From contig JAQBNP010000237.1 in the NCBI GenBank assembly GCA_028288515.1, forward strand, positions 1-35,424: a stretch of DNA of 35,424 nucleotides, written 5' to 3'. Shown here piece after piece: positions 667-15,253 of the stretch. The number at the start of each line of letters is the position of its first letter. Position 1 is the stretch's first letter. This DNA comes from Flaviaestuariibacter sp. (GTDB lineage Bacteria; Bacteroidota; Bacteroidia; Chitinophagales; Chitinophagaceae). A program made the position numbers and the translations under genes. The notes beneath the pieces were generated by a model that searched no databases, was not told the DNA's origin, and saw nothing but the letters and a program-made list of their open reading frames with translations.

Positions 667-3111
667 ATGACGTACGCCGAGATCATCATCCCGCTCGCCC
701 TTCCGAAAAACTATACGTGGGAGATCCCTCCGCGCCTGGCCGCCGGCCTGCTGCCCGGATGCCGCGTGGAAGTGAATCTGGGCAAGAACAAGAAGTACGC
801 AGGGATCGTGAAGCGCTTGCACGATGAGAAGCCCACCAGCTTCGAAGCAAAAGAGATCCTGAATGTCCTCGACGCCGAGCCGGTGATCCATCCGTTCCAG
901 TTGAAGCTGTGGGCCTGGATCGCGGACTACTATATGTGTTCCGAAGGAGAAGTGATGGCGGCAGCCCTTCCGGCGCATTTCAAGCTGTCGAGCGAGACGG
1001 TGCTGGTGTACAACGATGAATTCGGTGACGATTTCTCCACCCTCGACAACGAAGAGTACCTCGTTGCGGAGGCCCTCCTCATGAAGCACGAGCTGCGGCT
1101 TACTGAGGTCCAGCAGATCCTCGACGTCACCCACGTTTACCCGATCGTAAACCGCCTGATCGGTAAAAAGGTCTGCTTCGTGTGGGAGTCCCTCAAGCAA
1201 ACCTATGCGCCAAAAAAAGAGAGCTTTATCCTGCTCGATCCCCAATATGGAAATGAGGACAAGCTGGCCGACCTGCTGAACAACTGGAGCCGTGCACCGA
1301 AGCAAATGGACCTTCTTCTGAGCTATCTCCACCTTGTCCGCACGGAAGGCGAGGTGACCAGGAGCGAGCTCCTCAAGAAATCCAATGCGAGCGAAGCCCA
1401 GTTGAAGGGACTTGTTGAGAAAGGGATCCTGAGAACAGAACGACGCGCCATCGACCGGCTTCATACCCTGCCGAAAGACGTACACGTAGACTTTACTCTC
1501 AGCGATGCCCAGGAAGCGGCGCTGGCAGGGGTTCGCACCAGCTTCGAGACCAAGCCCGTCTGCCTGCTGCACGGCGTAACGTCGAGCGGAAAGACGCTTG
1601 TGTATATCAAGCTGATCGAGGAGCAGATCCGGCAGGGCAGGCAGGTACTGTATATGCTTCCCGAGATCGCGCTGACCGCGCAGATCATCCGCCGCCTGCA
1701 AAAATATTTCGGAGGCTTTATCGGCATTTATCACTCGCGCTTCAATCAAAATGAACGTGTCGAGATCTGGAATAAGGTCCGCAGTGGCGAAATGAAGGTG
1801 GTGCTTGGCGCCCGTTCCTCTCTCTTCCTGCCGTTCCGTGACCTGGGCCTCGTGATCTGCGACGAAGAGCACGACACATCGTATAAGCAGCAGGACCCGG
1901 CGCCCCGCTACAATGGGCGGGACGCGGCGATCTATCTCTCGTCGCTCAGTGGAGCTAAGGTGTTGCTGGGAACGGCAACGCCTTCACTGGAGACCTATCA
2001 CAATGCGAAGACCGATAAGTTCGGGCTCGTCGAGCTCATGGAGCGCTACCGCGATGTGAAGCTCCCGACCATCGAGATGATCGATACGCGCGCGATCCCG
2101 AAGAAGCCCGGCGAGAAGGTAATGTTCTCGGTGCAACTACTTGAGGAGATCAAAGCAACGGTGGCGCGCGGCAAGCAGGTGATCCTGTTCCAGAACCGCC
2201 GCGGCTATTCGCCCTACCAGGTCTGTGGTGCCTGCGGCTGGATCGCCCAGTGCCGCCATTGCGATATCTCGCTGACGTTTCACAAGTTTGCCAATAAGCT
2301 GAAATGCCACTACTGCGGCAATATCTACCCGCCCGTCAATACATGCATGGCCTGCGGAAGCGATAAGCTGAGCCAGCGCAGCTTCGGCACGGAGCGCATT
2401 GAGGAGGTGCTGGAAACAGACCTGCAAAATGTCAGGACGGCCCGCATGGATTTCGATGCGATCCGCAACAAGAACGCTCATGATGTGCTGATCCAGCAGT
2501 TCGAGCAACGCAAGGTCGACGTGCTCGTCGGCACGCAGATGGTGGTGAAGGGGCTCGACTTTGAGAACGTCGAGCTCGTTGGCATTCTCGATGCGGATGG
2601 CCTTTTGCATTTCGCGGACTTCCGGGTCAACGAGCGTGCGTTTCAATTGATGGAGCAGGTCAGCGGCCGTGCGGGCCGCAAGGAGGGGAAAGGCACGGTG
2701 ATGATCCAGACGTCCACGCCAAACCACCCGCTTCTGCTGCATGTTGCCCGACATGATTATATCGGGATGTATGCAGAAGAGATCGAAAAGCGAAAGCAAT
2801 TCTTTTACCCGCCCTTCTCGCGCATCATCCACTTGTCGTTTCGTGACAAGGAAAAAGACATCGTATTCGAGGCTGCGCACCGCTTTGCAAAGATGATGCA
2901 GATGGCTTATGGCGCCTATATGGTTGGTCCTGCCGAGCCCGTCGTGAGCCGTGTCAGGAACCTTTACCTGATGGAGCTCCTGCTCAAGCTTCCCCGAGAC
3001 AGCAACCTGATCGCCCGCTGCAAGGAAGACATCGCGAAGCACACCGCCGGCCTCCATGCGGAAGCGAGGTTCCGCAAAACGACGATCGTCCCGGATGTAG
3101 ATGCCTTATGA
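667..3111 (+). CDS. priA: Primosomal protein N' (replication restart helicase PriA)
   Basis: 814 residues, close to usual PriA length. PriA binds stalled or collapsed forks through its N-terminal 3'-DNA-binding domain and reloads the replicative helicase via the primosome. Visible in order: an N-terminal domain starting YAEIIIPLALPKNYTW; Walker A GVTSSGKT (within residues 300-310); Walker B DEEH (399-402) followed by DTSYKQQ; the zinc-binding insertion from about residue 520 with CxxC-type pairs (CGACGW, CRHC, CHYCG, CMACG, eight Cys in all); then motifs V/VI including GTQMVVKGLDFENV and QVSGRAGRKEGKG. The ATG at 667 puts the start 14 bases after the acyltransferase stop. The 3' end overlaps the convergent NAD(P)-binding gene by 6 bases (TTATGA holds both stops). 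Large open frames antisense to this gene are reading-frame shadows. Confidence 0.97.
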   Translation: MTYAEIIIPLALPKNYTWEIPPRLAAGLLPGCRVEVNLGKNKKYAGIVKRLHDEKPTSFEAKEILNVLDAEPVIHPFQLKLWAWIADYYMCSEGEVMAAALPAHFKLSSETVLVYNDEFGDDFSTLDNEEYLVAEALLMKHELRLTEVQQILDVTHVYPIVNRLIGKKVCFVWESLKQTYAPKKESFILLDPQYGNEDKLADLLNNWSRAPKQMDLLLSYLHLVRTEGEVTRSELLKKSNASEAQLKGLVEKGILRTERRAIDRLHTLPKDVHVDFTLSDAQEAALAGVRTSFETKPVCLLHGVTSSGKTLVYIKLIEEQIRQGRQVLYMLPEIALTAQIIRRLQKYFGGFIGIYHSRFNQNERVEIWNKVRSGEMKVVLGARSSLFLPFRDLGLVICDEEHDTSYKQQDPAPRYNGRDAAIYLSSLSGAKVLLGTATPSLETYHNAKTDKFGLVELMERYRDVKLPTIEMIDTRAIPKKPGEKVMFSVQLLEEIKATVARGKQVILFQNRRGYSPYQVCGACGWIAQCRHCDISLTFHKFANKLKCHYCGNIYPPVNTCMACGSDKLSQRSFGTERIEEVLETDLQNVRTARMDFDAIRNKNAHDVLIQQFEQRKVDVLVGTQMVVKGLDFENVELVGILDADGLLHFADFRVNERAFQLMEQVSGRAGRKEGKGTVMIQTSTPNHPLLLHVARHDYIGMYAEEIEKRKQFFYPPFSRIIHLSFRDKEKDIVFEAAHRFAKMMQMAYGAYMVGPAEPVVSRVRNLYLMELLLKLPRDSNLIARCKEDIAKHTAGLHAEARFRKTTIVPDVDAL

Positions 3112-3783
3112 CGCAGTCAAATCGGCAGCAAGCTTGGTGATCTCGCCGTATTCGTACACATGAACGCCGGGCGCAGGCTCTTTGCCTGCCTGCAGCATCG
3201 CAGCGGCAACGTCCTGTGCCGACACAGGCTTCAGACGTTTGGGAAGAGCGAACGAAAACGCTTTCATCGCGATTTGTCCTGCGCGCTCGGCAGGACGGGA
3301 TTCACCGCGCTGCCCGAGCAGCATCGAGGGCCGGAAAAAAGAGACCGAGCTCAGTGAAAGTGCAGTGATCGCTTCCTCGATCTCCCCTTTGAGCCGCAGG
3401 TAGAAATTGCCTGACCGTGTATCGGCGCCCACGGAGGACACCAGCACGAATGTCGGGCAGCCCGTGTCGCGACAGTGGCGTGCCGCACTGACCGCGATGT
3501 CAAAGTCGATCTTGCGGTACGCATCACGGTCGCCATTGACCTTTTTCTGTGTCGTGCCAATGGCGCAGAAGACGACGTCGCTGCCATCAATGGCGAGCCG
3601 GAAGGCTTCGGCGTCGGTGAAGTCAAGAAGTTTGTTGACCGTTTTGCGATCAGTGCCCGCGAACGGACGGCGCACCAGCAGTCGGATGTCCGTGAAGAAC
3701 GGATCAGTCTGCAGGCGCGCCAGGAGGTGGCCGCCGACCAGGCCTGTTGCCCCAATGAGCGTAGCTGTTCGCGTCTTGTTCAT
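3106..3783 (-). CDS. NAD(P)-binding Rossmann-fold oxidoreductase (atypical SDR, HTATIP2-like)
   Basis: 225 residues. The N-terminus has a beta strand and the glycine-rich dinucleotide loop GATGLVGGHL (about residues 11-20), followed by VVFCAIGTTQKK, and later FVLVSSVGAD and FYLRLKGEIEEA, where the YxxxK of classical SDRs would lie. The pattern matches the NAD(P)H-binding/NmrA-like families and resembles the CC3/HTATIP2 group of atypical SDRs. The substrate is unknown. It is the last gene of the minus-strand set that starts at 10930: only 2 bases separate its ATG from the stop of the DUF3857 gene upstream. Its stop overlaps the convergent priA stop. The fold is secure; a role related to the upstream secreted proteins is not shown, and it may simply be carried along by the operon. 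Confidence 0.85.
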   Translation of the reverse strand: MNKTRTATLIGATGLVGGHLLARLQTDPFFTDIRLLVRRPFAGTDRKTVNKLLDFTDAEAFRLAIDGSDVVFCAIGTTQKKVNGDRDAYRKIDFDIAVSAARHCRDTGCPTFVLVSSVGADTRSGNFYLRLKGEIEEAITALSLSSVSFFRPSMLLGQRGESRPAERAGQIAMKAFSFALPKRLKPVSAQDVAAAMLQAGKEPAPGVHVYEYGEITKLAADLTAS

Positions 3784-3785
3784 TG

Positions 3786-5738
3786 TTATTTTTTACGGTC
3801 GAGCACCAGCACAACCTTGTTGAAATCAGCAGACGCATTGATCACTTTTTTGAACGCGGGGTACTGCTCCATGGGGTAGTAGTACTTGTTGTATGATTCG
3901 CTGATGACGATATGCAGGATGTTCTTGTCGAGAGAGTACGTGGAAACAAAACCCATGGTCACCTTGCCATTGCTGGTCACGACCTCGTTGAAGGCGAGGT
4001 CTTTCAGGTTCTTGATTTCGTAGCCGTCCGGGATAACGATGTCGATCGTGCGGTCTAGTACGTGGGGGAAGGGAAGCTCGATCGGTGTGGTGCGCTCTTT
4101 CTCGTCATACATCTGCACTTGCTCGCCGATGAGGTCGCCCACCTTGATGATGATCTTTTCCCCCGCCTTTTCAACGAGCTCGGGCGCTTTCAATTTTGCT
4201 TTGATAATAAACGGCTTGTAGGGATCGGCCTGCTCGAGCTCCTTGTTCTCGAAGCTGCTCGACAGGAGGTTGTCTTTGCCGCTGCCGTATTTGACGAGCT
4301 GCCGAAGAATTTTATCCTGCTCGTCTGCCGGGTAAAAGACGAATGGCGCGCGGTAGGTTGCAGCCGTGTAGCCTCCATAGATCTGCTTCACATCCAGGAG
4401 AAGGGCGTCCATGTCCTTATCGAGCTCGGCCCGCAGCTCCAGGTTATGGAAGGAGTACTTCATGTCTTCCATCGTGATGGGCTTGATCTCGCCGATGGCC
4501 GATTGAAACGTGCCGAGCTTCGTGACAACGCAATACAGGCCGTTCGTGCCGGCCCATGTCGGCGGTATCCACGGGTAGCGGTAGGCATTGGCCGAGGGGG
4601 CGAGGTATTTCTGCTGCGATGGGAAGTAGAATAGCAGGTTCTGCGCGTTGTTCCAGTTCTCTATATTCTTCTCGATCACGAAATCGGAGCGGTCGCCGCT
4701 GAGCACGATCTCAAAGTCGATATTGCTCACTGCCAGCGCCGTGGCAAAAAGCTTGTTGAAAGCCCGCTCGCTCGACACCTTTGTCTTGATCACTTTCACG
4801 AGGTCGCCGGCGTCCTCGTTGTCGATGTCTGTGCGGGTCTGGAAATTTTTCTTCAGGTAATTCTCGAGACGCGTGATCTTTTCAGTTTCTGACGAAGCGG
4901 ACAATATGCCCGCGTCGCTAACAAGGTCGCGCACACGCTTGGTCTCCTTCTCGCTGGCGTCCGAATAATTATCATACACTTTCTTCGCCAGCTCGTTCCA
5001 TGTGAAGAGACGCTCCGACGTGCTTTTGGCGACATTGTAGCTCAGCTTGTATTCGACGCGCTTCAGGTTTGCGTCCTGCATGGAGTAGGTCTCTTCAACG
5101 GGCGCATCGAGGTTTGCAGCGTCCAGGGAGAGGTAGCGCTTTTCGCCGTAGCTTGTATCCCTGAAGGCTGGCAGGTTGTTGTACGTGCGGGCATCGAACT
5201 TCAGGTGGTCCGGCGAGATCAGCTCAAAATGGCTGGCCATGACCGGCACCCGGGCCGTCATATATTCTCTTCCGAAGAAAGAAGCATACTGTTTCATGGT
5301 GTAATAAAATTCCACCTCGCATCCTTTTGCCAGGCCTTCCAGGGCAAATATCTTGTAGGTCCGGTTGTCTTCCTGCAGGTCCTTGATATTCTTTTCGTCG
5401 AGCTCTATGACTTTTCCGGACGGAAGCGTCGTGCGCGCTTTCACGGTTACCATCTGCAGGGCCTGGTCAAACGGCAGGTAGATGCGGTTAAAATACTCAA
5501 TGCCCTTGTCCGTATTGATGTGGATCAGCCGGTGCACCGTTTTATAGAGGAAGATGCCGTCTTTCTCCAGGGAATATTCGTTGATCTTGTCTTCCTGGAC
5601 ATAGACCGCTGCCTCGTCCTTATACTTGTCGGCAACCGCGTGAAGCGCCGGGCGTTCCTGCCAGTGAAATGTTTTGATCGATGTTTGCGCAGTCGCGGAG
5701 AGGCTCGTGGCGAGGCAGAGAAGGAGGAATGATCGCAT
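3786..5738 (-). CDS. DUF3857 protein with a degenerate transglutaminase-like domain
   Basis: 650 residues with an N-terminal signal peptide (MRSFLLLCLATSLSATAQ), so probably periplasmic. The DUF3857 beta-rich region follows (about 40-230; KTVHRLIHINTDKGIEYF, LPSGKVIELDE), then a helical region matching a transglutaminase/protease core (about 250-400) and a C-terminal beta-rich part. Aligned by eye with its neighbour at 5742-7649, the catalytic Cys position falls in VSSERAFNKLF (residues 321-331, Glu324 in place of Cys), and neither the His nor the Asp of the triad is evident in NWNNAQNLLFYF and YLAPSA. It therefore looks like a non-catalytic paralogue. Only 3 bases separate it from the intact paralogue upstream and 2 from the NAD(P) gene downstream, so all are likely co-transcribed. 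Function is unknown; a binding or scaffold role is inference. Confidence 0.85.
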   Translation of the reverse strand: MRSFLLLCLATSLSATAQTSIKTFHWQERPALHAVADKYKDEAAVYVQEDKINEYSLEKDGIFLYKTVHRLIHINTDKGIEYFNRIYLPFDQALQMVTVKARTTLPSGKVIELDEKNIKDLQEDNRTYKIFALEGLAKGCEVEFYYTMKQYASFFGREYMTARVPVMASHFELISPDHLKFDARTYNNLPAFRDTSYGEKRYLSLDAANLDAPVEETYSMQDANLKRVEYKLSYNVAKSTSERLFTWNELAKKVYDNYSDASEKETKRVRDLVSDAGILSASSETEKITRLENYLKKNFQTRTDIDNEDAGDLVKVIKTKVSSERAFNKLFATALAVSNIDFEIVLSGDRSDFVIEKNIENWNNAQNLLFYFPSQQKYLAPSANAYRYPWIPPTWAGTNGLYCVVTKLGTFQSAIGEIKPITMEDMKYSFHNLELRAELDKDMDALLLDVKQIYGGYTAATYRAPFVFYPADEQDKILRQLVKYGSGKDNLLSSSFENKELEQADPYKPFIIKAKLKAPELVEKAGEKIIIKVGDLIGEQVQMYDEKERTTPIELPFPHVLDRTIDIVIPDGYEIKNLKDLAFNEVVTSNGKVTMGFVSTYSLDKNILHIVISESYNKYYYPMEQYPAFKKVINASADFNKVVLVLDRKK

Positions 5739-5741
5739 GTT

Positions 5742-7649
5742 TTATTTTTTGCTGAGTACGATTGTTTGTTTGTAATGGGGGACCAGGTGGGAGAGGACTT
5801 CGTTCCAGGCCGCGAACTGGTCCTGCTCCAGCAGGAGGTGGTCTGTGTCAAGCTGCTGGGTGAGGATGATCGCATCCTTTTCCTGCCGGTACTGCAGGTC
5901 AAAGCCCCAGGTATTATTGGCGAAGTGCTCGCTGCGTGGCACGCTCGACACCTGGTACCCGGGAGGAAGGCTGAGGATCGCGGTCAGATTTCGCGAAGTG
6001 AGGTAGCGGTATTCAACCGGTGACTTTCGCTTGTCGGTCTCGATCGCCTGGTCCTCGAACAGCTTAAAAAGGTTGAGGTTCATGATCCATTCGTCTCCAA
6101 GCTTGCGCGCATAATCGGGCAGGGAGAAACGAGCGGTGACCCAGGCACTGTTGTGGTCCGGCGATTGGTCAACGGCCCAGTCCGAGAAGCGGATCTTGTT
6201 GCTCCCGCGGGCAAAGCGCGTCTGGAAATCATCGTCTCGTTCCTTCGTGTTCTTGTAGTTCAACAGGCCATACATATCGGACGAGTAGTAGCCGGTCAGG
6301 TGGATGCGGATCTTTCCAACAAGTCCTTTATCTGTGAGCTCGAGCCATGTGGTATCGCGATATAGGTTGGCTTCTTTCGGCACGATCTCCACGGGCACGA
6401 TCTTGTATTCTTTTTCGGAGAGGGCCACCAGCGCTTCCTTTCCCTGTATATGGCTTGAGGGCATTCCGAAGACGCAATCGCTGTCGGTGCCGTCCAGGAA
6501 AATGAAGCGGCCGTCAATCAGGATCGCGCAGATCATGTGGTTGTCGACGATGGGCAGCGGCGTTTCCGTGTAGCGGTAGGGCAGGTGGCGCGTGCCGATC
6601 CATGTGTAGTATGCCTTCACGCCCGCGTGGGTCAGCATGGCTGTGAGGATGCTTGCCATGTCTTTGCAGTCGCCAAAGCGCCGCGTGCACACGAGGCTTG
6701 CCTGGCGCGGCACGAAGCCTTCGAGGCCCTCCTCAAAGGCAACATACTTGATGCTTGCCTGGACCCACCGGTAGATGCGCTTTGCTTTCTCCAGGTCGGT
6801 GGCGCCTTTTGACAGGGAGTCCGTAATATGCGCAAGGTCGGCGCTGATCTCTGTGTTGAGTCCTTTCAGGAAGCCGTAGTTATACCGGTAGAGGTCGTCC
6901 GGCGTTGACAGGAATGGCTTCCATGTTCCATCGTCCTCAACCTTGTCGATATAGAAGATAACGTGCGTGGCGAAGTACGAATGGCCCGGCGCGTTATCAT
7001 AACCCGGGACGCTCTGCGCATCGCGGAGCGAAAACGTATACGTGGTCCTGTCCTTTCGCCGCGTTTCCTGCACCTGCACCTTTGACGCGTTGGCGCCCTT
7101 GACCAGGTACTTGACCTGGACATCGGAGGGGAAGACAACCTTCAGCTCCCCATCGCGGACCGGGAAGTAGCGGTCGAAATAGAACGGGGTTAGAAGATGC
7201 GCGTCGCTGTGAAAAAGCTCGTATTCAATATGGCGTGTGGCGCCCGGGGCAATACCCGTGAAATCGAAGGAGGTCTCTTTCGCATCGTCGTAGAACACGT
7301 AGTCCTGGCGGCTTGCGCCCGTGTTGACATGGGATACTTTCAGCTTCTTATTTTCTGCCGAGCGCGTGTAGGCGTCCCAGTCCTTCAGCTCGTTGAAGCT
7401 GCTGTGGTAGATGGCGCCATGTCCCATCATCTTCACGCCCTTGTCCGTGGCCAGGAGCATGTCTTCAGCATAGTTGGTGCGGGCCGTCAGCTTTCCCTTG
7501 TCGTTGTGGATCGTGACCTCGCAGGACAGCTTGGTGTAGACCGCCTCCGCATCAGGGAAGGGCTGGGCGGGCGACTGGCCCGCAACCGATTGGCTGGTCA
7601 AAAAGGCGAGGCCTGTCAATGTGGCCGCGGCCAGGTATATTCTTCTCAT
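5742..7649 (-). CDS. DUF3857 / transglutaminase-core domain protein, intact catalytic triad
   Basis: 635 residues. The N-terminal signal peptide (MRRIYLAAATLTGLAFL... SVAG) indicates export. DUF3857 occupies about residues 40-270, followed by the transglutaminase/protease core. The triad is complete: Cys328 in RFGDCKDMAS, His371 in DNHMICAI, Asp386 in FLDGTD. Such domains in bacteria act as cysteine peptidases, amidases or cross-linkers; which applies here cannot be told. The C-terminal 200 residues are beta-rich. Its ATG overlaps the TGA of the upstream TPR/MORN gene (ATGA at 7646-7649), implying translational coupling. The neighbouring paralogue at 3786-5738 lacks the triad, so the two may act as an enzyme and pseudoenzyme pair (inference). 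Confidence 0.9.
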   Translation of the reverse strand: MRRIYLAAATLTGLAFLTSQSVAGQSPAQPFPDAEAVYTKLSCEVTIHNDKGKLTARTNYAEDMLLATDKGVKMMGHGAIYHSSFNELKDWDAYTRSAENKKLKVSHVNTGASRQDYVFYDDAKETSFDFTGIAPGATRHIEYELFHSDAHLLTPFYFDRYFPVRDGELKVVFPSDVQVKYLVKGANASKVQVQETRRKDRTTYTFSLRDAQSVPGYDNAPGHSYFATHVIFYIDKVEDDGTWKPFLSTPDDLYRYNYGFLKGLNTEISADLAHITDSLSKGATDLEKAKRIYRWVQASIKYVAFEEGLEGFVPRQASLVCTRRFGDCKDMASILTAMLTHAGVKAYYTWIGTRHLPYRYTETPLPIVDNHMICAILIDGRFIFLDGTDSDCVFGMPSSHIQGKEALVALSEKEYKIVPVEIVPKEANLYRDTTWLELTDKGLVGKIRIHLTGYYSSDMYGLLNYKNTKERDDDFQTRFARGSNKIRFSDWAVDQSPDHNSAWVTARFSLPDYARKLGDEWIMNLNLFKLFEDQAIETDKRKSPVEYRYLTSRNLTAILSLPPGYQVSSVPRSEHFANNTWGFDLQYRQEKDAIILTQQLDTDHLLLEQDQFAAWNEVLSHLVPHYKQTIVLSKK

Positions 7650-10600
7650 TTAATGATCTCTAGGATTGTTCCGTAAAAACAGCGGCGCTGCGCGATGCGC
7701 TTGCCTGTCTCGTCATAGTTCGTGATCAGCCCGTGCTCGTCACCGTTGACGTACTGGCCTTCTTCTTTCACTTTGCCGTTCTCGTGATATTCCTTGTAGA
7801 GACCGTCGAGTACATCGAAAGTGAGGAGATAGTCGGACTGCGGGTTCCCATTGTTGTAGAACTCTTTTTGGTGGCCCTGCGTGAGCCCGTTGGCATTGGT
7901 ACTTTGGTAGGCGATCTTTCCGTTCGAGTGGTAAATGGTGTACAGGCCATGAAAGGCGCCGTTGAGGAATTCCATCTCGGCTGCCTTGCCTCCGTTAGCA
8001 AAGAACGTCGTCATCTTGCCCGTACCGCCTGGCAGCGCGATCCGTGGCAACAGCTTGCCGTCGCGGCCTTCGTACGACCAGGCCCTGATCTCGCCCTCCT
8101 CGTAGTATTGCACATAAAGAAGTAGGCCGTCTTCGCTGTAACGCTTGTAAATGCCGTGCATGGACCCGTTCCGGTACTCGATGGCGCGGGCAACCTTGCC
8201 GTTCGGATGGTACATCATCACGGTACCGGCCACGTCACCGTCAATATACGGCTCATCTTTCCAAAGCTTTCCGTCGGATGAATAATATTTCCATGTGCCA
8301 GTGCGCTTTCCAAGTTCCATTGTGCCCGTTGCGGCGACCTTTCCGTTGGAGTGGTAGTCGGTGTACGTTCCGTGAAGGAGCCCACGGTCGTATGCTTTCT
8401 TTTGCCGGATAGAGCCATCAGGGTAATACAGGGTGAAGTCTCCGTCGAAGTCGCCCCCCTTATAGGCCCCTGTATAGCGCGTGCGGCCGTTCGGGAATTT
8501 GCTTTCGTAAACGCCGTTGCCGTTTTTAAAGGTCGTGGCGAACAGGAGCTTTCCGGACGTGTCGAACTGGTTGAGGCCAGTGAGCCACCCGCCCGTATAA
8601 ACCAGCTCGTAGTCGATTTTGCCATTGCCGTGGTAGTATTCGTAATAGCCTGCGTAGTCGCCGTTCCGGTATGTATAGCGTTCCTCGATCGCGCCGTTGA
8701 GGTAGTACGTCGTCCAGTCTCCATTTTGTTCATCCTCGAGGTAGAAGCCCGCAGACTTCAGCTTTCCGTTGGGGTGATAATAGGCTGCCGGGCCGTTCTT
8801 CTCGCCGTCCTCGTAGCTGATCTCGTACTGCTTTGTTCCGTCGTTGTAATAGCCGATGCACTTGCCCTGCAGCTTGCCGTCAACATAATCGTTCACCTCC
8901 TGCACATTGCCGGACGCGTAATAGAAGGTGCGCGTGCCGTGCACGTTGCCATTTTCGTTGTAGACAGCGGAAGATTTCCGGATTCCTTCAGGCGAGTAGG
9001 TGGTGAGGTCGATCGTCTTACCCTTGCGAACCGATGTGTGGGTCACTTTTCCCTCCTTATCGAGGTAGGTTGCTTCGCGGCAGATGTCCTTATCGAAAAG
9101 GAGTGTGGAGTAGAGCTTGCCGTCATGGTCGTAATAGGACGCGAGGCCCGTGAGCTTGCCTTGTTTGAAGATCGATTTCGCAGTCAGGACGCCGTCCTCA
9201 TCGTACTCGAGGTCCTCGCCTTCGCCAAGACCGTCGACGAATGCGCGGGCTTCTTTCAGCTTCCCGTTGGCATGGTAGGAGCGCACGGCGCCCGTGAGCT
9301 TGCCGGCCGCATAGGTGGCTTCAAAGCTGAGCCGGCCGTTCTCGAAGTAGCTTTGGAACAGTCCCGTCAATTCTCCGCTGGCGTACGTGCAGCGCTTGGA
9401 CAGCCGGCCATTTGCGTACCATGCAGAATACGGACCGTTGAGCTTTCCGTCGCTCATGGTGGCCTCAACATGTTTCCTTCCGGAGCTGTATGATTCGCGG
9501 TAGGGACCGTTCTCAACGTCGTCACGGTAGGTGGTCGTTGACTTATGCTGGCCCGTCAGGTAGTTCATGACCTGCTCACCATTGATCTTTCCGTTGACAT
9601 AGGTCGACCTGGTGCTGACCATGCCATTGTGGAAGTACACAATGTCTTCTCCGTTCTCAACGCCATTGGTCCAATGCTCGATCCCGCTGCGGTCGCCGTT
9701 GTCATAAAAAAAGATCCACTCGCCGGTCTTCTTGCCATCGGGCGTATACATGCCGCGCGCCTTCACGTTTCCGTTCTCGTGATAGAACTCCCAGTTTCCG
9801 GATTGATTGTCGGCCGCATCGATCGTGCCCTTGCCGATAAGCGTATTGTCGTTGTCGAAATGATACTGCGCCGGCGCTGTTTTGCGGGTTGTGAAAGGGA
9901 GCAGGCGGGTGGCGCGAATCTGGTTGAGATAGGAAACGATCACCGACTGGGCCTCTTTCACATCCTTCGCATTCTTCTTCATATACTTCTGGATCTGCTC
10001 GATGTTGATCTGGGAAAAGGCCTGGAAGACGGATGCCTCGAAGTGACCTTCCTCAAACACCTGCTTGTACAGCGGCACATAATACTGCATATAAAAATCC
10101 GTGCTGGACGGGTCATATTTCACGACCTCCATCAGGGCTTGCAGCTGCCTGATGATCGGGTCATCGAGAGAAGCCTGCTGCTTGTAGCTCTTGTCCAGCG
10201 CGATCTTCGACAGGATGACCTGCTCGGCGCGGCCAAAGGTTTCCTCGGGCACGGACCGCTTTTCCACCGCGTCCGAAATCGACTCGTCATTTTTGCAAAT
10301 GGCGCTGAGGCTTTTGATGGCCGTCGACTGGTGCCGTCCGCCCGGACTGATAATGAGGTATGTCAGCAGCGAGAACATCGCCGGTACCGGCCGCCCCTGC
10401 GAAATGGCAATGCTCGCCAGCTTCATATGTGCGCTTGCATAATATGGATTGGTGATGACCAACTGCTTCAGGATGGTTTCGGCTTCTGCGAGCTTTTGCT
10501 GGCGCATCAGGGCGATGGACTTATTGAGCAGCAGCACCTGTGAGGCCGGGTATTTAGCGAGGGCCAGGTCGTAGAAGACCACAGCCTCGGGGCCGCGTCC

Positions 10601-10930
10601 CATATCGTCCAGGGTACTGGCTTTAGAGACCATAAGGTCCAGCTCATAGGGGCTGTTTTCGCGCTTTAGGCCTTCATCGCAGGCTGCGAGAGCGGCGTTG
10701 TAATTGCTGTCATAATTGTAGGACATGGACATTTCGTACAGGGCGCGCACATAATTCGTATCGTTGCGGGGAATTGTCCGGAAAAGCTGGATGGCTTTCT
10801 TGTATTCTTCCTTATCATGAAGCTGGATGGCCTGGCTGATGACGAGGCCGGAGTTGAGGGCGGCGGGCAGCTGGCTGGAGGCAGGGCGGGCACAGAGGAG
10901 CAGGACGAAGCCCAGGACGGCGTTTCTCAT
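7646..10930 (-). CDS. Secreted TPR protein with about 30 tandem MORN_2 repeats
   Basis: 1094 residues. A signal peptide (MRNAVLGFVLLLCARPASS) is followed by a TPR-type helical solenoid (about 25-200; DKEEYKKAIQLF, NYNAALAACDEGL, LAEAETILKQLV) and a helical linker (200-370). From about residue 380 to the end come some 30 consecutive 22-24 residue units of the type YHxNGKxKxxxxYxxGxxxG, the MORN_2 (YwqK-like) repeat. Databases often label such proteins 'toxin-antitoxin system YwqK family antitoxin', but nothing here supports a toxin-antitoxin role; the signal peptide and length suggest an exported scaffold or binding protein. It is the first gene of the minus-strand set, and its stop overlaps the next start by 4 bases. 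The 99-base divergent gap to murB holds a near-consensus minus-strand -7 element (TTACTTTG, 10955-10962) but no well-spaced -33 box. Confidence 0.9.
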   Translation of the reverse strand: MRNAVLGFVLLLCARPASSQLPAALNSGLVISQAIQLHDKEEYKKAIQLFRTIPRNDTNYVRALYEMSMSYNYDSNYNAALAACDEGLKRENSPYELDLMVSKASTLDDMGRGPEAVVFYDLALAKYPASQVLLLNKSIALMRQQKLAEAETILKQLVITNPYYASAHMKLASIAISQGRPVPAMFSLLTYLIISPGGRHQSTAIKSLSAICKNDESISDAVEKRSVPEETFGRAEQVILSKIALDKSYKQQASLDDPIIRQLQALMEVVKYDPSSTDFYMQYYVPLYKQVFEEGHFEASVFQAFSQINIEQIQKYMKKNAKDVKEAQSVIVSYLNQIRATRLLPFTTRKTAPAQYHFDNDNTLIGKGTIDAADNQSGNWEFYHENGNVKARGMYTPDGKKTGEWIFFYDNGDRSGIEHWTNGVENGEDIVYFHNGMVSTRSTYVNGKINGEQVMNYLTGQHKSTTTYRDDVENGPYRESYSSGRKHVEATMSDGKLNGPYSAWYANGRLSKRCTYASGELTGLFQSYFENGRLSFEATYAAGKLTGAVRSYHANGKLKEARAFVDGLGEGEDLEYDEDGVLTAKSIFKQGKLTGLASYYDHDGKLYSTLLFDKDICREATYLDKEGKVTHTSVRKGKTIDLTTYSPEGIRKSSAVYNENGNVHGTRTFYYASGNVQEVNDYVDGKLQGKCIGYYNDGTKQYEISYEDGEKNGPAAYYHPNGKLKSAGFYLEDEQNGDWTTYYLNGAIEERYTYRNGDYAGYYEYYHGNGKIDYELVYTGGWLTGLNQFDTSGKLLFATTFKNGNGVYESKFPNGRTRYTGAYKGGDFDGDFTLYYPDGSIRQKKAYDRGLLHGTYTDYHSNGKVAATGTMELGKRTGTWKYYSSDGKLWKDEPYIDGDVAGTVMMYHPNGKVARAIEYRNGSMHGIYKRYSEDGLLLYVQYYEEGEIRAWSYEGRDGKLLPRIALPGGTGKMTTFFANGGKAAEMEFLNGAFHGLYTIYHSNGKIAYQSTNANGLTQGHQKEFYNNGNPQSDYLLTFDVLDGLYKEYHENGKVKEEGQYVNGDEHGLITNYDETGKRIAQRRCFYGTILEIIK
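7680..9793 (-). repeat. Tandem MORN_2 repeat-coding region (about 30 units of 66-72 bases)
   Basis: Counting units by the Y-x-NG-K core between Trp380 (codon at 9791-9793) and the C-terminus gives about 30 copies. Most are 24 residues; two or three in the middle are degenerate (for example around ATYLDKEGKVTH and YEGRDGKLLP). The repeat is conserved in protein pattern rather than in DNA, so it looks old and under selection rather than a recent array expansion. Confidence 0.8.
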
Positions 10931-11029: not shown

Positions 11030-12043
11030 ATGACGCTCCGGGATAACGTTACACTGCAACCGTTAACGACATTCGGCATCCGCGCAACCGCCCGCTGGTT
11101 CGCCTCTTTTGCGTCCGTGGACGAGCTCCAGGAGCTGCTGGCACTGGCCCGCGAGCGTCGCCTGGACACCCTGATCCTTGGCGGCGGCAGCAACATCCTG
11201 TTCACCACCGATTTCGAGGGCCTGGTGCTTCGCAATGAGATCGCGGGTATCGACGTCGTCAGCGAAGACGAAGACCATGTGCTGGTCCGCGCCGGGGCTG
11301 GTGAAAGCTGGCATGGATTCGTACAGTATTGCCTGCGCAACAACCTCGGTGGCGCCGAGAACCTCTCGCTCATCCCGGGCTCGGTTGGTGCGTCGCCGAT
11401 GCAGAACATTGGCGCTTATGGGGTCGAGATCAAAGACATCTTCCACGAGCTCGAGGCCGTTCCGCGCACCGGCGGCGCACCCCGTAAATTTTCGGCCGAT
11501 GAGTGCCGGTTCGGCTACCGCGAGAGTGTCTTCAAGAACACGTACCGCAACCAGTATGTGATCGCCTCTGTCACCTATCGCCTTCACAGGAAGCCCGTGC
11601 TCAATACATCGTACGGCGCCATTACGCAGGAGCTGGCAGCCATGGGCGTTACGACGCCTTCCATCCACGACGTGTCGGAAGCTGTGATCCGCATCCGCAC
11701 CTCCAAACTTCCCGACTGGCACGAGGTCGGCAATGCCGGCAGCTTTTTCAAGAACCCGCAGGTGTCCATTGAAAAATTTGAATCGCTGAAAGAGTCATAT
11801 CCATCCATCGTCGGCTACCCGCAGGGGGAGGGGCGCAAGATCGCTGCGGGCTGGCTCATCGAGCAGTGCGGCTGGAAAGGCTTTCGCGAAGGCGACGCAG
11901 GTTGCTACCCGAAGCAGGCCCTGGTGCTGGTAAATTATGGAATGGCCACCGGGAAACATATCTTTGACCTGAGCGAGCGCATCATCGCATCGGTTCGCGA
12001 AAAATTCGGGGTCGAGCTGGAGAGAGAAGTGAACGTCATTTAA
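11030..12043 (+). CDS. murB: UDP-N-acetylenolpyruvoylglucosamine reductase (MurB, type I)
   Basis: 337 residues, matching the type I (E. coli-like) enzyme. MurB is the cytoplasmic FAD enzyme that uses NADPH to reduce UDP-GlcNAc-enolpyruvate to UDP-MurNAc, the second committed step of peptidoglycan synthesis. FAD-binding motifs are clear: LGGGSNILF (about 49-57) and IPGSVGASPMQNIGAYG (about 115-131). FGYRESVFK holds the conserved Arg, and NAGSFFKNP carries the catalytic Ser at residue 238. The C-terminal ELEREVNVI matches the region bearing the conserved catalytic Glu. The ATG at 11030 fits the N-terminal pattern LQPLTTFGI. A perfect 10-base palindrome, AAACTAGTTT (11014-11023), lies 6 bases before the start; its meaning is unknown. 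The gene diverges from the TPR/MORN set. Confidence 0.97.
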   Translation: MTLRDNVTLQPLTTFGIRATARWFASFASVDELQELLALARERRLDTLILGGGSNILFTTDFEGLVLRNEIAGIDVVSEDEDHVLVRAGAGESWHGFVQYCLRNNLGGAENLSLIPGSVGASPMQNIGAYGVEIKDIFHELEAVPRTGGAPRKFSADECRFGYRESVFKNTYRNQYVIASVTYRLHRKPVLNTSYGAITQELAAMGVTTPSIHDVSEAVIRIRTSKLPDWHEVGNAGSFFKNPQVSIEKFESLKESYPSIVGYPQGEGRKIAAGWLIEQCGWKGFREGDAGCYPKQALVLVNYGMATGKHIFDLSERIIASVREKFGVELEREVNVI

Positions 12044-12099: not shown

Positions 12100-12585
12100 A
12101 TGTTTAAGAAAACCGTCCTGTCCGCCCTGTGCACTATCGGTATCTCATCCGCCCTCTTCGCCCAAACCGCTGCAAAGTCGATGTATGTTGAGCTTGGTGG
12201 CCCTGGCCTCGCGTCGATCAACTATGACACCCGCTTCACCAAGAAGGAAGGCGGCATCGGCGGCCGTATCGGCCTCGGCTATTTCAGCGTTGACGGTGAG
12301 CGCCTTCTGACCGTTCCCATCGGCATCAATTACCTGCTGAGCAAGGACCAGCGAAATTATTTCGAGGTCGGTGGCGGCGTCACCGTCGTGAGCTACAAAA
12401 GCGACTACTACGATTACTATAACGACCCGAGCACATTCACCGGCACGTTCGGGCACCTGAACTTCGGCTACCGCCTGCAGCCAAAGAACGGCGGATTCAT
12501 GTTCCGCGCAGCGATCACGCCGGTCTTTGGCAGAGATGGGTTTATCCCGTACTACGCGGGGATCGCCTTCGGGTACAAATTCTAA
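12100..12585 (+). CDS. Small exported beta-barrel-like protein, probable outer-membrane protein
   Basis: 161 residues with a clear signal peptide (MFKKTVLSALCTIGISSALFAQ). The mature part alternates hydrophobic and polar residues with Gly and aromatic residues (YVELGGPGLASINYDTRF, GIGGRIGLGYFSV, HLNFGYRLQ, YYAGIAFGYKF) and ends in an aromatic residue, as outer-membrane barrels do. At this size an eight-stranded barrel is plausible. I cannot assign a specific function. It lies 56 bases after murB, and its TAA shares bases with the TAG of the convergent AAA+ ATPase gene, leaving no room for a terminator between them. Confidence 0.75.
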   Translation: MFKKTVLSALCTIGISSALFAQTAAKSMYVELGGPGLASINYDTRFTKKEGGIGGRIGLGYFSVDGERLLTVPIGINYLLSKDQRNYFEVGGGVTVVSYKSDYYDYYNDPSTFTGTFGHLNFGYRLQPKNGGFMFRAAITPVFGRDGFIPYYAGIAFGYKF

Positions 12586-14114
12586 TTGAAATCTTCTTCT
12601 TCAGCGTCCTCGTCTTCAAACGAGGACGTTTTCATGTTCAGCATGCTGCCCATGAGGTCCTTGAATTCGACCGAGGTCTCGAGGATCTTTTTCGAGATGA
12701 GTGAATAAGAGGAAAGACCGTGCAGCACGAACTCCATCAGCAGGGCGGTCTCGAGCTCGTCCGCTGTTCCGAACTGCTTCGTGACGAGAGCGTGGAGCCC
12801 GTCGACACGGTACAGCGCATTTATCTTTTCCCTGTCCTTTGTGCCGAACAGCAGGTTTAGGTGATTGCCCTTGTCGAACCAGGAGATGATCGAGCGGTAC
12901 GGATTGTCCACGGGCTGCGGGGTTTCACCCTTGCGAGGCGACCGCTTCTTCAGCGTGTCAGGGTTCGGAAAATACTGGACGAACTGCGCGCGGATGGCCT
13001 TGTCAAGGAGGTTCATGGCCACCTGGTAGGGACCTTCCTGCTCGCCTTCGTACACCAGCTCGATCTTTCCTGTGATCGAGGGGATGATGCCCACGAGGTC
13101 GGAGATCCACACCTGCGTCTGGGCTTCTTTGTTGAGGATCGAGCGGCGCTCGGCGGAGCTGACGCAATTCTCATACGCGGAGATCGTCAGGCGGGCGCTG
13201 ACGCCGCTTTTCTTGTCAACGAATTCGCTGGCGCGTGCTTCGAAAGCCACCTGCTCCACGAGCCTCTTGACAAGGTCGCTGATGGAGATCGCTTCCGCCT
13301 GGGCTGTCACATCTGCTTCCTGCTCCGTGATGGCGAGGGCGTGCTCGATCGACTTGGGGTAGTGGGTGAGTATCTGGCTCTGGATGCGGTCCTTCAGCGG
13401 TGTCACAATGGAGCCGCGGTTTGTATAGTCTTCCGGGTTGGCCGTAAAGACAAACAGAATATCGAGGGGCAGCCGCAGCTTGAAACCGCGGATCTGCACG
13501 TCGCCTTCTTCCAGGATATTGAACAGTCCCACCTGGATGCGCGCCTGGAGATCGGGCAGCTCGTTGATGACAAAAATGCTGCGGTTGCTTTTCGGAATGA
13601 TGCCGTAATGGATGACACGCTCGTCGGCGAAGCTGAGCTTGAGGTTTGCAGCCTTGATCGGGTCCACGTCACCAATGAGATCGGCGACACTGACATCAGG
13701 CGTTGCCAGCTTCTCGCCATAGCGCTGGCTGCGGTGCATCCATTCGATGGGCGTGGCATCGCCCTTTTCGCGGATCAGGTCTGTTGCAAACTTTGAGATG
13801 GGCCGCATCGGGTCGTCATTGATCTCGCTTCCGCCGATGACGGGAATGTATTCGTCGAGGAGCTCGGTCATTTGCCGCGCCATGCGTGTCTTGGCCTGGC
13901 CCCGCAGGCCGAGGAACAGGATATTATGCTTGCTCAGGAGGGCGCGCTCCACGTCTGGAACCACGGTGTCCTCGTAGCCGATGATGCCCGTAAAGGTTGG
14001 ATCGCCTGCCTTCAGCTTCCTGACCAGGTTTTCCCGGATCTCCTCTTTAATGCTGCGGGAAACGTAACCGGATTCTTTCAGCTCGCCAATTGTGTTGATT
14101 CGTTTAATGTCCAT
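12582..14114 (-). CDS. MoxR-like / magnesium-chelatase-type AAA+ ATPase
   Basis: 510 residues. AAA+ features: Walker A GLRGQAKT (69-76), Walker B-like FVINELPDL with Asn184-Glu185 where most AAA+ proteins have Asp-Glu, sensor 1 in FTANPEDYTNRG (Asn226), and a probable arginine finger in TPLKDRIQSQ (about Arg243). The NELPDL form is, as I recall, usual for this Bacteroidota clade. MoxR ATPases act with VWA-domain partners in protein maturation or metal insertion, and magnesium/cobalt chelatase subunits share the fold. The VWA partner is the gene directly upstream (14156-15253), 41 bases away, supporting a two-component chaperone-like complex. The C-terminus is acidic (SFEDEDAEEEDFN). No chlorophyll or cobalamin genes are nearby, so a true chelatase role is unsupported. 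Confidence 0.88.
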   Translation of the reverse strand: MDIKRINTIGELKESGYVSRSIKEEIRENLVRKLKAGDPTFTGIIGYEDTVVPDVERALLSKHNILFLGLRGQAKTRMARQMTELLDEYIPVIGGSEINDDPMRPISKFATDLIREKGDATPIEWMHRSQRYGEKLATPDVSVADLIGDVDPIKAANLKLSFADERVIHYGIIPKSNRSIFVINELPDLQARIQVGLFNILEEGDVQIRGFKLRLPLDILFVFTANPEDYTNRGSIVTPLKDRIQSQILTHYPKSIEHALAITEQEADVTAQAEAISISDLVKRLVEQVAFEARASEFVDKKSGVSARLTISAYENCVSSAERRSILNKEAQTQVWISDLVGIIPSITGKIELVYEGEQEGPYQVAMNLLDKAIRAQFVQYFPNPDTLKKRSPRKGETPQPVDNPYRSIISWFDKGNHLNLLFGTKDREKINALYRVDGLHALVTKQFGTADELETALLMEFVLHGLSSYSLISKKILETSVEFKDLMGSMLNMKTSSFEDEDAEEEDFN

Positions 14115-14155
14115 TGTGCTCTTCTCTTAGTGCCGATCGGTGACCGGTTGCTTGT

Positions 14156-15253
14156 TTAGTAAAGTGTTTTTCGTTTGCCGCTTTCAAAGTCCTTGAAGAT
14201 AAAGGCGCCGAGCTTGTCCAGCGATGCAAAGAAGGCCTTGCCATTGTTCGTTTCTGTGAACTCCTGCACGAATCGCTGGAGGTAGGGATCGGTGGCGATC
14301 ATGAAGGTAGTGATGGGGATCTTGAGCTTCTTGCATTGGGCGGCGAGGTTCATGCAGCGACTGGTGACCTTGCGGTCGAGGCCGAAGCTGTTCTTGTAAT
14401 AGCGCCGCCCGATCTTGAGACAGGTCGGCTTGCCATCGGTGATCACGAAGATCTGCTTGTTTGGATTCTTGCGTCGCCGAAGAATGTCCATGGCGAGCTC
14501 GAGACCCGCGACCGTATTAGTGTGGTAGGGGCCGACCTGCAGGTAGGGAAGGTCCTTGATCTCAACAGGCCACGCGTCGTTGCCGAACACGACGATATCG
14601 AGCGTATCCTTCGGGTATTTCGTTGTGATGAGCTCGCTGAGCGCCATGGCAACCTTCTTCGCCGGCGTGATGCGATCCTCGCCATAAAGGATCATCGAAT
14701 GCGAGATATCGATCATCAGCACGGTCGAGGTCTGCGCTTTGAAATCCGTCTCCCGGATCTGCAGGTCGTCCTCCTGCATCATGAAGGAATCGAGGCCGTG
14801 GTTGATCTGTGCATTGCGGATGGACTCGGTAAAATCGATCTGCTCGAGAAGGTCGCCAAACTGGAACGGACGCGTATCTGGACTGATCTCGTCACCGCCG
14901 CCGGGCTTGAATGTCTGGTGCTCGCCGCTCTTGGTTTTTTTCAGCTTGCCAAAGATTTCTTCGAGGCTCTTCTTCCGAATGCCCTGCTCTGTTTTCGGGG
15001 TGATGCGGATCTCGCCGTTCTGCTCGTTGTCGGCGATATAGCCTTTTGATTTGAGGTCGTCGATGAAATCGCCCATTCCGTATTCGTCATCCGTCAGCTC
15101 GTATTTTTTGTCCAGCTCGTTGAGCCACTGGAGTGTTTCGCCGACGTCGCCGCTGGTGTAGGTCAGCAGCTGCATGAAGAGGTCGAGCAGTTGCTCGAAC
15201 CGCGTTTTTCCGTCTGCGTTGGGGTCGAAGCCCGAAAATTGAAAGCCTTGCAT
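14156..15253 (-). CDS. VWA-domain protein, partner of the MoxR-like ATPase
   Basis: 365 residues, no signal peptide, so cytoplasmic. The N-terminal 170 residues are helical and charged. The von Willebrand A domain (about 175-360) has a complete MIDAS metal site: DISHS (Asp182, Ser184, Ser186), a Thr near TNTVAG (about 245-247) and Asp273 in VITDGKPT. VWA proteins next to MoxR ATPases are taken to recruit substrates in a metal-dependent manner. The gene lies just downstream of the terminator at 15305-15332, so this pair needs its own promoter in the roughly 50 bases before the ATG. A 7-of-8 match to TAnnTTTG (CATTTTTG, 15269-15276, minus strand) is present without a convincing -33 box. Confidence 0.88.
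   Translation of the reverse strand: MQGFQFSGFDPNADGKTRFEQLLDLFMQLLTYTSGDVGETLQWLNELDKKYELTDDEYGMGDFIDDLKSKGYIADNEQNGEIRITPKTEQGIRKKSLEEIFGKLKKTKSGEHQTFKPGGGDEISPDTRPFQFGDLLEQIDFTESIRNAQINHGLDSFMMQEDDLQIRETDFKAQTSTVLMIDISHSMILYGEDRITPAKKVAMALSELITTKYPKDTLDIVVFGNDAWPVEIKDLPYLQVGPYHTNTVAGLELAMDILRRRKNPNKQIFVITDGKPTCLKIGRRYYKNSFGLDRKVTSRCMNLAAQCKKLKIPITTFMIATDPYLQRFVQEFTETNNGKAFFASLDKLGAFIFKDFESGKRKTLY

Follow-up and report, generated by a model that had tools for sequence, protein, structure and literature searches.

A trio of adjacent genes, referred to here as A, B and C, is common to many environmental Bacteroidota and is kept together across distant lineages. The genes encode, respectively, a long TPR and MORN_2 repeat protein, a transglutaminase-like protein with a DUF3857 domain and a paralogue of the latter without its catalytic triad. 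The three products probably work as one envelope machine, and it is quite possible, as a tentative reading, that this machine consists of an exported enzyme and its pseudoenzyme, together with a MORN_2 scaffold of fixed length that serves the pair.

Organization of the locus

Coordinates refer to the window, the whole stretch of 35,424 nt that was analysed, from contig JAQBNP010000237.1 (assembly GCA_028288515.1) of Flaviaestuariibacter sp. The features are as follows.

7646..10930, minus strand: gene A, 1094-aa TPR and MORN_2 protein with an export signal (signal peptide at about residues 1-19, TPR/helical part at about 25-352, about 30 MORN_2 hairpins at about 356-1093)
7652..9865, minus strand: MORN_2 array of A, the strands of the predicted model (residues 356 to 1093)
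5742..7649, minus strand: gene B, 635-aa DUF3857 and transglutaminase-like protein with an export signal and the residues Cys328/His371/Asp386
3786..5738, minus strand: gene C, 650-aa full-length paralogue of B with an export signal and no catalytic triad
3106..3783, minus strand: gene D, 225-aa NAD(P)-binding Rossmann protein

Genes A and B overlap by four bases (a gap of -4), the start of B and the stop of A sharing the bases ATGA, and gaps of 3 and 2 bases separate B from C and C from D, respectively. This spacing suggests a common transcript for A through D. The locus is bordered by murB (11030-12043, plus strand), which diverges from A, and by priA (667-3111, plus strand), which is convergent with D and overlaps its end by six bases. 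Proteins A, B and C each start with a signal peptide of the Q-rule type of Bacteroidota, and none was seen in D on inspection by eye. Both the four adjoining genes with these gaps and the signal peptides on three of the four products had been claimed in an earlier reading of this DNA made from its letters alone (the sequence-only reading), and both claims hold. Across homologs, an ad hoc Q-rule pattern finds export signals in 40 of 43 sequences of A, 37 of 41 of B and 41 of 43 of C.

Two other assignments were considered and rejected. With regard to T9SS cargo (A, B or C), no window protein matched a type IX C-terminal sorting domain family in Pfam or NCBIfam (E 0.001), and with regard to anti-phage defence, none of the four proteins A to D matched a PADLOC model at E 0.01.

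Conservation and distribution of the trio

The association of A with B was assessed in two genome surveys, both done regardless of neighbourhood. Among 98 relatives, the genome studied here included, all 12 genomes that bear A have B immediately 3' of the full-length gene (in one of these, just the first 87 codons of B precede the contig end), and C is next after B in 11 of the 11 genomes where this could be read. Among 395 genomes of the phylum, B is directly 3' of full-length A in all seven A-bearing genomes among the matches listed. When pooled, the two surveys show this arrangement in 16 of 16 different genomes, and no A without B was found in these 16, again among the matches listed; the position of C was counted in the survey of 98 relatives and not in the four genomes added by the phylum survey. 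The phylum survey scored two and three candidates per genome, compared with up to seven among the 98 relatives, so some copies of A or B may have been missed there.

Another set, of 80 named loci, comprises the best 80 of at least 563 confirmed relatives retrieved with B as the query, so that B is present in each by construction and only A and C are tested. Gene A is present in 48 of these loci, all 48 of which also have C, and a full A (>1000 aa) is found in 42. The other 38 comprise three in which A is cut at a contig end, three with fragments of A (L117 and L177, internally deleted, and L119, which begins near a contig end), 23 without A, seven in which A would lie beyond the contig end and two in which B was dropped by the ORF caller (L173 and L178). 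Confidence in the link of B to A is carried by the 16 of 16 genomes among the matches listed, and the 48 of 48 loci count for C only. The sequence-only reading had made its proposal depend on conservation of this neighbourhood in related genomes, and the neighbourhood is conserved. Its author also knew of no description of the combination, and no description of A-B-C was found among the literature matches listed, and there was no match for MORN, transglutaminase and Bacteroidetes together or for pseudoenzyme, transglutaminase-like and bacteria together, subscription papers and preprints being outside the scope of these searches. DUF3857 itself occurs in one paper of the literature searched, a passage of which names a neighbouring gene.

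The membership of the unit is limited to three genes. Protein D (NAD_binding_10, 52.6 bits; cut-off 27.2) has relatives in only four of the 80 named loci (L105, L107, L109 and L137), these being the best 80 of at least 563 relatives of B; the relative directly follows C in the first three, and another frame intervenes in L137. Thus, of the four-gene unit originally proposed, A, B and C are kept together as neighbours and D is not part of the conserved unit. No other recurring fourth partner emerged: among 229 flanking genes only murB (five loci) and priA (four loci), both housekeeping genes, reach the threshold of at least four of the 42 loci, and neither hints at a pathway, which weighs against the favoured reading. 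The flanking genes vary and the trio is constant.

Within the trio, loss of A need not entail loss of B and C. More specifically, C is kept in 15 of the 23 loci without A, from which it follows that A is accessory, and in two loci (L117 and L177) A is reduced to its two ends while B and C are full-length. In the 23 loci that lack A, the sequence preceding B, examined over as much as 1500 bases, showed no remnant of A at E 1e-3. Active/inactive DUF3857 pairs are more widespread than the MORN protein A.

Shared history of the three genes

Proteins A, B and C have much of one history in common, and this history conflicts with taxonomy. In FastTree phylogenies, 26 of 38 splits are common to all three trees and 12 are not; the common splits include those that put Mucilaginibacter and Pedobacter among the Chitinophagaceae, with support of 0.997-1.0. 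When the presence of A is mapped on the B tree (71 of the 80 loci, with the three A fragments scored as A), at least 10 changes are needed, which indicates that the link to A has often been made or broken. Among the B and C positions compared for the presence of A, the strongest highly conserved candidates are His559 (91% vs 21%) and Tyr621 (87% vs 21%) of C, which are confounded by ancestry and offer a hint at most.

The occurrence of active/inactive DUF3857 pairs without A would fit an alternative in which B and C form a peptidase/pseudopeptidase pair of the usual periplasmic sort, and A, although transcribed together with them, has a separate job of its own. This alternative is unlikely, however, in view of the constant position of B behind A in the 16 listed genomes surveyed regardless of neighbourhood, the persistence of the trio where the flanking genes change, and the splits shared by the three trees across orders.

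The putative enzyme and its triad-less twin

Protein B scores 53.6 bits for DUF3857 (cut-off 24.6) and 34.5 bits for Transglut_core (cut-off 23), and its triad, Cys328-His371-Asp386, is intact in 41 of 41 sequences, an alignment that leaves out two broken frames (L131 and L149). Protein C matches DUF3857 alone (56.3 bits; cut-off 24.6). The two proteins align over 617 columns with a probability of 99.8 (hhalign). At the aligned triad columns none of 43 C sequences has the Cys or the His, and three have the Asp, in an alignment of 14% identity in which single columns could be off. These results agree with the sequence-only reading, which had described a Cys-His-Asp enzyme followed by a triad-less paralogue. 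Column 328 holds Ser in one C protein and Thr in four, and a few C proteins may thus carry a weak nucleophile.

The closest solved structure is 3KD4, the putative protease BDI_1141 of Parabacteroides distasonis, which has a DUF3857/transglutaminase-like structure. It is the sole solved structure matched by the profile of B (E 3e-4), and 474 residues of the predicted fold of C align to its 505-residue chain (Z 23.9, rmsd 4.2), although it is a single solved protein with 11% identity to C; by sequence, C matched no solved structure at E 0.01. The TgpA and LapG-type enzymes are also extracytoplasmic members of the transglutaminase-like superfamily. Going by their descriptions they stand apart, as we know of no DUF3857 domain, inactive twin or MORN protein associated with them.

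A repeat protein of fixed length

Protein A scores 186.1 bits for MORN_2 (cut-off 29.6) and 33.9 bits for TPR_19 (cut-off 25), and by sequence it matched many TPR proteins among solved structures. Its predicted model has 62 strands from residue 356 onward, or about 31 hairpins, which bears out the figure of about 30 repeats given in the sequence-only reading. The array (residues 378-1076 of the window protein) is 693-703 residues long in 43 of 43 sequences at identities as low as 24%, a statistic that covers A frames of >1000 aa only. An array length held within ten residues while identity drops to 24% suggests that the task of A depends on length or geometry. Mean conservation is similar in the N-terminal part (0.35) and the MORN part (0.33), so any docking surface on A is a guess.

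Several known proteins resemble A in part. The MORN segment aligns to the MORN1 structures from apicomplexans and trypanosomes, over 202 residues for 6T4D (Z 13.9, rmsd 6.7) and 210 for 6T4R (Z 13.8, rmsd 6.8), scores that barely exceed what repeats reach by common arrangement. MORN1 is eukaryotic, whereas A is a bacterial protein that starts with an export signal, carries TPR before about 30 MORN_2 repeats and is linked to an enzyme pair. According to PMC7725318, the MORN1 proteins of known structure are elongated, bear a groove and serve as protein-protein interaction modules, and TbMORN1 has 15 repeats. The best Foldseek E-values for A belong to the YD-repeat shells of Rhs and teneurin proteins (5e-18 over 885 columns), with which it shares local beta hairpins; the TM-score of the best row is 0.08 with an rmsd of 33 Angstrom, and the predicted overall shape of A does not look like a shell or closed beta cocoon, although the overall shape of so long a repeat model may be unreliable. 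The best NCBIfam match, the LIC20035 family adhesin (NF033566), reaches 104.9 bits over the MORN_2 repeats, below the curated equivalog cut-off of 250.

MORN_2 proteins are often annotated in databases as immunity or antitoxin proteins of the YwqK kind, and such antitoxins have a toxin gene as their neighbour. That A belongs to this group is highly improbable: it is a protein of 1094 aa and fixed length with an export signal, the gene that follows it is B in every one of the 16 genomes among the matches listed, and the 24 window proteins scanned include no recognised toxin family.

Possible roles of the system

It is conceivable, though on balance rather doubtful, that A is the substrate of the pair, so that B, aided by C, would cleave, trim or cross-link A and so turn it into the functional end product, such as an adhesin or a spacer of the envelope. 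The lack of any A without B in the 16 genomes listed, the occurrence of B-C without A and its survival of A deletion, and the four-base overlap of A and B in 18 of 42 loci all fit this scheme, and protease-adhesin systems resembling Lap offer a known precedent (PMC13090378). However, B must have other substrates in the 15 A-less loci that keep B-C, and A bears no mark of a surface protein, as the Pfam and NCBIfam scans showed no type IX sorting tail in it and a lipobox-like pattern matches 1 of 43 A sequences.

In the scaffold reading favoured here, A, B and C would form one exported, soluble and probably periplasmic system. Protein B would be a cysteine acyl-hydrolase or acyltransferase (a peptidase, amidase or cross-linker), and C a pseudoenzyme partner that forms a pair with B, holding or regulating it. 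Protein A would be an elongated scaffold, about 30 nm long if its 62 strands stack at about 4.8 Angstrom. Its helical N-terminal part may dock a partner, and an extended polypeptide or polymer may bind in its long MORN groove and so be presented to B-C. The pair would also be able to work without A. A more specific version, which appears quite unlikely at present, makes A a molecular ruler. The exported MORN_2 rod, with its fixed length of about 30 nm, would span the envelope or act as a spacer in it, and would set the place at which the enzyme/pseudoenzyme pair acts or the length of the polymer that it acts on. As a variant, the array may close up to give a shell like that of Rhs proteins.

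These findings give DUF3857 proteins a concrete context, namely active/inactive pairs in several Bacteroidota lineages, in some of which the pair is linked to a MORN_2 protein of steady size. The A-deleted loci that keep B-C, together with cultured hosts (Niastella, Mucilaginibacter, Pedobacter and Hymenobacter), make the role of A a testable question. If the ruler reading were true, it would be the first ruler-type function of MORN_2 repeats known to us, and the envelope machine would be of a new kind.

Conservation of the A-B-C unit

Four successive open frames are found on the minus strand of the window:

10930-7646, minus: A, 1094 aa, Pfam MORN_2 and TPR
7649-5742, minus: B, 635 aa, Pfam DUF3857 and Transglut_core
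5738-3786, minus: C, 650 aa, Pfam DUF3857 only
3783-3106, minus: D, a Rossmann protein, 225 aa, Pfam NAD_binding_10

The frame coordinates bear out the spacings of -4 (A/B), 3 (B/C) and 2 (C/D) bases of the sequence-only reading, and from this spacing alone we infer that A to D may share one transcript. The run is flanked by divergent murB and convergent priA. Elsewhere in the window are an AAA_5 ATPase gene adjoining a VWA-domain gene (12582-15253), which we take to be reminiscent of MoxR/VWA pairs, and a TMEM260-like protein O-mannosyltransferase (15337-18663; 1108 aa, Pfam 240 bits).

It is A-B-C that is conserved as a unit. When 98 relatives, including the window's own genome, were searched with A and B and the gene maps of the regions were read, full-length A was found in 12 genomes. 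In 11 of these A is followed on the same strand by B and then C, and in the twelfth a B relative (52% identity, E 7e-28) is cut off by the contig end after 87 codons. A profile of A run over 395 genomes of the phylum returned seven full-length copies, scoring 887 to 1407 bits (218 for the next among the matches listed), each with B directly downstream; two first-look candidates were scored per genome, so that copies may be missed. The surveys overlap in three genomes, giving 16 different genomes with A, and B adjoins A in all 16. Among the ten of the 395 genomes with B above 570 bits, seven possess A.

Named loci were then obtained with B as query, such that B is present by construction and the loci test A and C.

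Gene content of the 80 named loci (best 80 of at least 563 confirmed relatives)
Full-length A and C: 42 loci
A cut at contig end, and C: 3 loci
A fragment and C: 3 loci
Contig ends before A region visible, C present: 7 loci
B-C without A: 15 loci
B without A or C: 6 loci
A absent, contig ends after B: 2 loci
B lost in ORF calling: 2 loci

Within this best-80 set, C is present in all 48 loci bearing A. Full-length A is carried by, among others, Niastella, Flavihumibacter, Parafilimonas, Mucilaginibacter, Pedobacter, Solitalea, Cesiribacter, Hymenobacter, one Roseivirga assembly and one Crocinitomicaceae assembly. The four-gene set proposed earlier holds for A, B and C, which are kept together across genomes, but not for D, whose relatives turn up at only 4 of these 80 loci, 3 of them with the relative immediately following C.

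A predicted enzyme beside a predicted pseudoenzyme

Every one of the 41 B proteins has an intact Cys328-His371-Asp386 triad. In C, the corresponding columns carry Cys in 0 of 43, His in 0 of 43 and Asp in 3 of 43 sequences. Aligned with each other, B and C match over 617 columns at 14% identity, with a probability of 99.8. The predicted C model (mean pLDDT 89.9, pTM 0.85) superposes on 3KD4 over 474 residues (Z 23.9, rmsd 4.2). Within it, residues 244-423 resemble chain H of XPC-TFIIH structures (Z 11.1), presumably XPC, a protein that carries an inactive transglutaminase-like domain. The absent triad, the alignment with B and these fold matches argue that C is an old, full-length pseudoenzyme. 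Cleavage, deamidation and cross-linking are all candidate reactions for B; many bacterial members of the transglutaminase-like superfamily are thought to be peptidases.

The active/inactive DUF3857 arrangement extends beyond the trio. More specifically, a full-triad protein stands beside a triad-less one in 15 of 18 further DUF3857 regions of related bacteria (L086-L103); in L103 the neighbour of the triad-less protein carries Cys-His-Glu, and the contigs of L094 and L098 stop before a second protein could be assessed. The DUF3857 genes of these regions, mostly of 680-780 aa, are a more distant version of B-C.

Signal peptides had been read on three of the four products, and those of A, B and C indeed end in Q-rule form, as described for Bacteroidota in PMC10653852. 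An ad hoc Q-rule pattern fits 40/43 A, 37/41 B and 41/43 C sequences and a lipobox-like pattern only 1/43, 2/41 and 5/43, which points to Sec export with type I cleavage for all three, rather than lipoproteins.

A repeat array of fixed length

The predicted model of A (mean pLDDT 91.4, pTM 0.76) is helical to about residue 351, with 62 strands from residue 356 on.

7652-9865, minus: MORN_2 hairpins of A, residues about 356-1093

The helical part matches TPR proteins (Z about 15), and the MORN part resembles MORN1 of P. falciparum (Z 13.9, 202 residues, rmsd 6.7) and of T. brucei (Z 13.8). Rhs/teneurin shells give the best Foldseek E-values (5e-18), yet with a TM-score of 0.08; thus the modelled hairpins would be like Rhs/teneurin YD locally but not in overall shape.

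Among 43 A sequences (frames over 1000 aa, 24-58% identical to the window's A), the array from residue 378 to 1076 is 699 residues long in 23 and 693-703 in all 43; other MORN_2 frames among the matches listed in the 395-genome survey span about 195 to 750 aa. When the 22 regular repeats are compared between sequences, a repeat finds its top match at the same position of the other sequence in 32% of comparisons versus 4.5% by chance, suggesting that individual repeats keep their identity.

Mean conservation is nearly equal in the N-terminal (0.35) and MORN (0.33) parts, and 25 of the 35 non-glycine positions with conservation above 0.75 sit in the N-terminal third (such as Asp57-Tyr60, His168, Gln262-Glu268 and Tyr284-Pro286), where we would guess a docking surface to lie. 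In 11 of 12 other regions inspected (L220-L228, L230, L231), the N-terminal part forms a separate protein of 338-395 aa. These stand-alone proteins, from other Bacteroidota and in differing contexts, have an export signal, with a lipoprotein-like start in 6 of the 11.

Evolutionary history

Unrooted FastTree trees were built for each of the three genes from 41 sequences, namely the window's own and those of 40 loci. They share 26 of 38 splits, and Spearman correlations between their tree distances lie at 0.88 to 0.94. Five Mucilaginibacter/Pedobacter loci (Sphingobacteriaceae) form one group in all three trees, nested with support of 0.997 to 1.0 in groups of 17 and 20 rows alongside Chitinophagaceae such as Niastella, Flavihumibacter and Puia; other Chitinophagaceae fall outside, as does Solitalea, another member of the Sphingobacteriaceae. 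Taken by themselves, these unrooted gene trees are most simply read as joint transfer of the three genes in one block. The flanks vary: among 229 flanking genes at 42 loci, only murB (5 loci) and priA (4) recur in 4 or more.

B-C without A is common among the loci, and no A without B was seen in the genomes surveyed. Upstream of full-length B and C, two loci retain only the two ends of A, in different frames:

L117 (metagenome assembly), about 5669-5966: A remnants
L177 (Hymenobacter psychrotolerans), about 5152-5894: A remnants

If the assemblies are right, these internal deletions represent apparent loss in place; no A remnant was detectable upstream of B in the 23 A-less loci. The presence of A on the B tree needs 10 changes, against 19.6 on average over 1000 shuffles, none of which needed fewer than 13, suggesting that A is inherited, yet often gained or lost. 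A thus looks like an accessory dependent on B-C.

Proposed mechanism

Each part of A, B and C falls in a known family. Neither the trio nor the active/inactive pairing nor the fixed-length array appeared among the open-access literature matches listed. Export signals, triad, pseudoenzyme, fixed array and shared history are computed results. B and C may pair as a heterodimer, with A as a long scaffold; at about 4.8 Angstrom per strand, its 62 predicted strands would make A roughly 30 nm long, the scale of the envelope. PMC7725318 describes MORN1 as twisting, elongated, dimerising proteins with a longitudinal groove, its authors favouring protein-protein interaction over membrane binding, and reports a myosin tail bound by the groove of MORN4. 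By analogy with these grooves, that of A could accommodate a chain in extended form for B.
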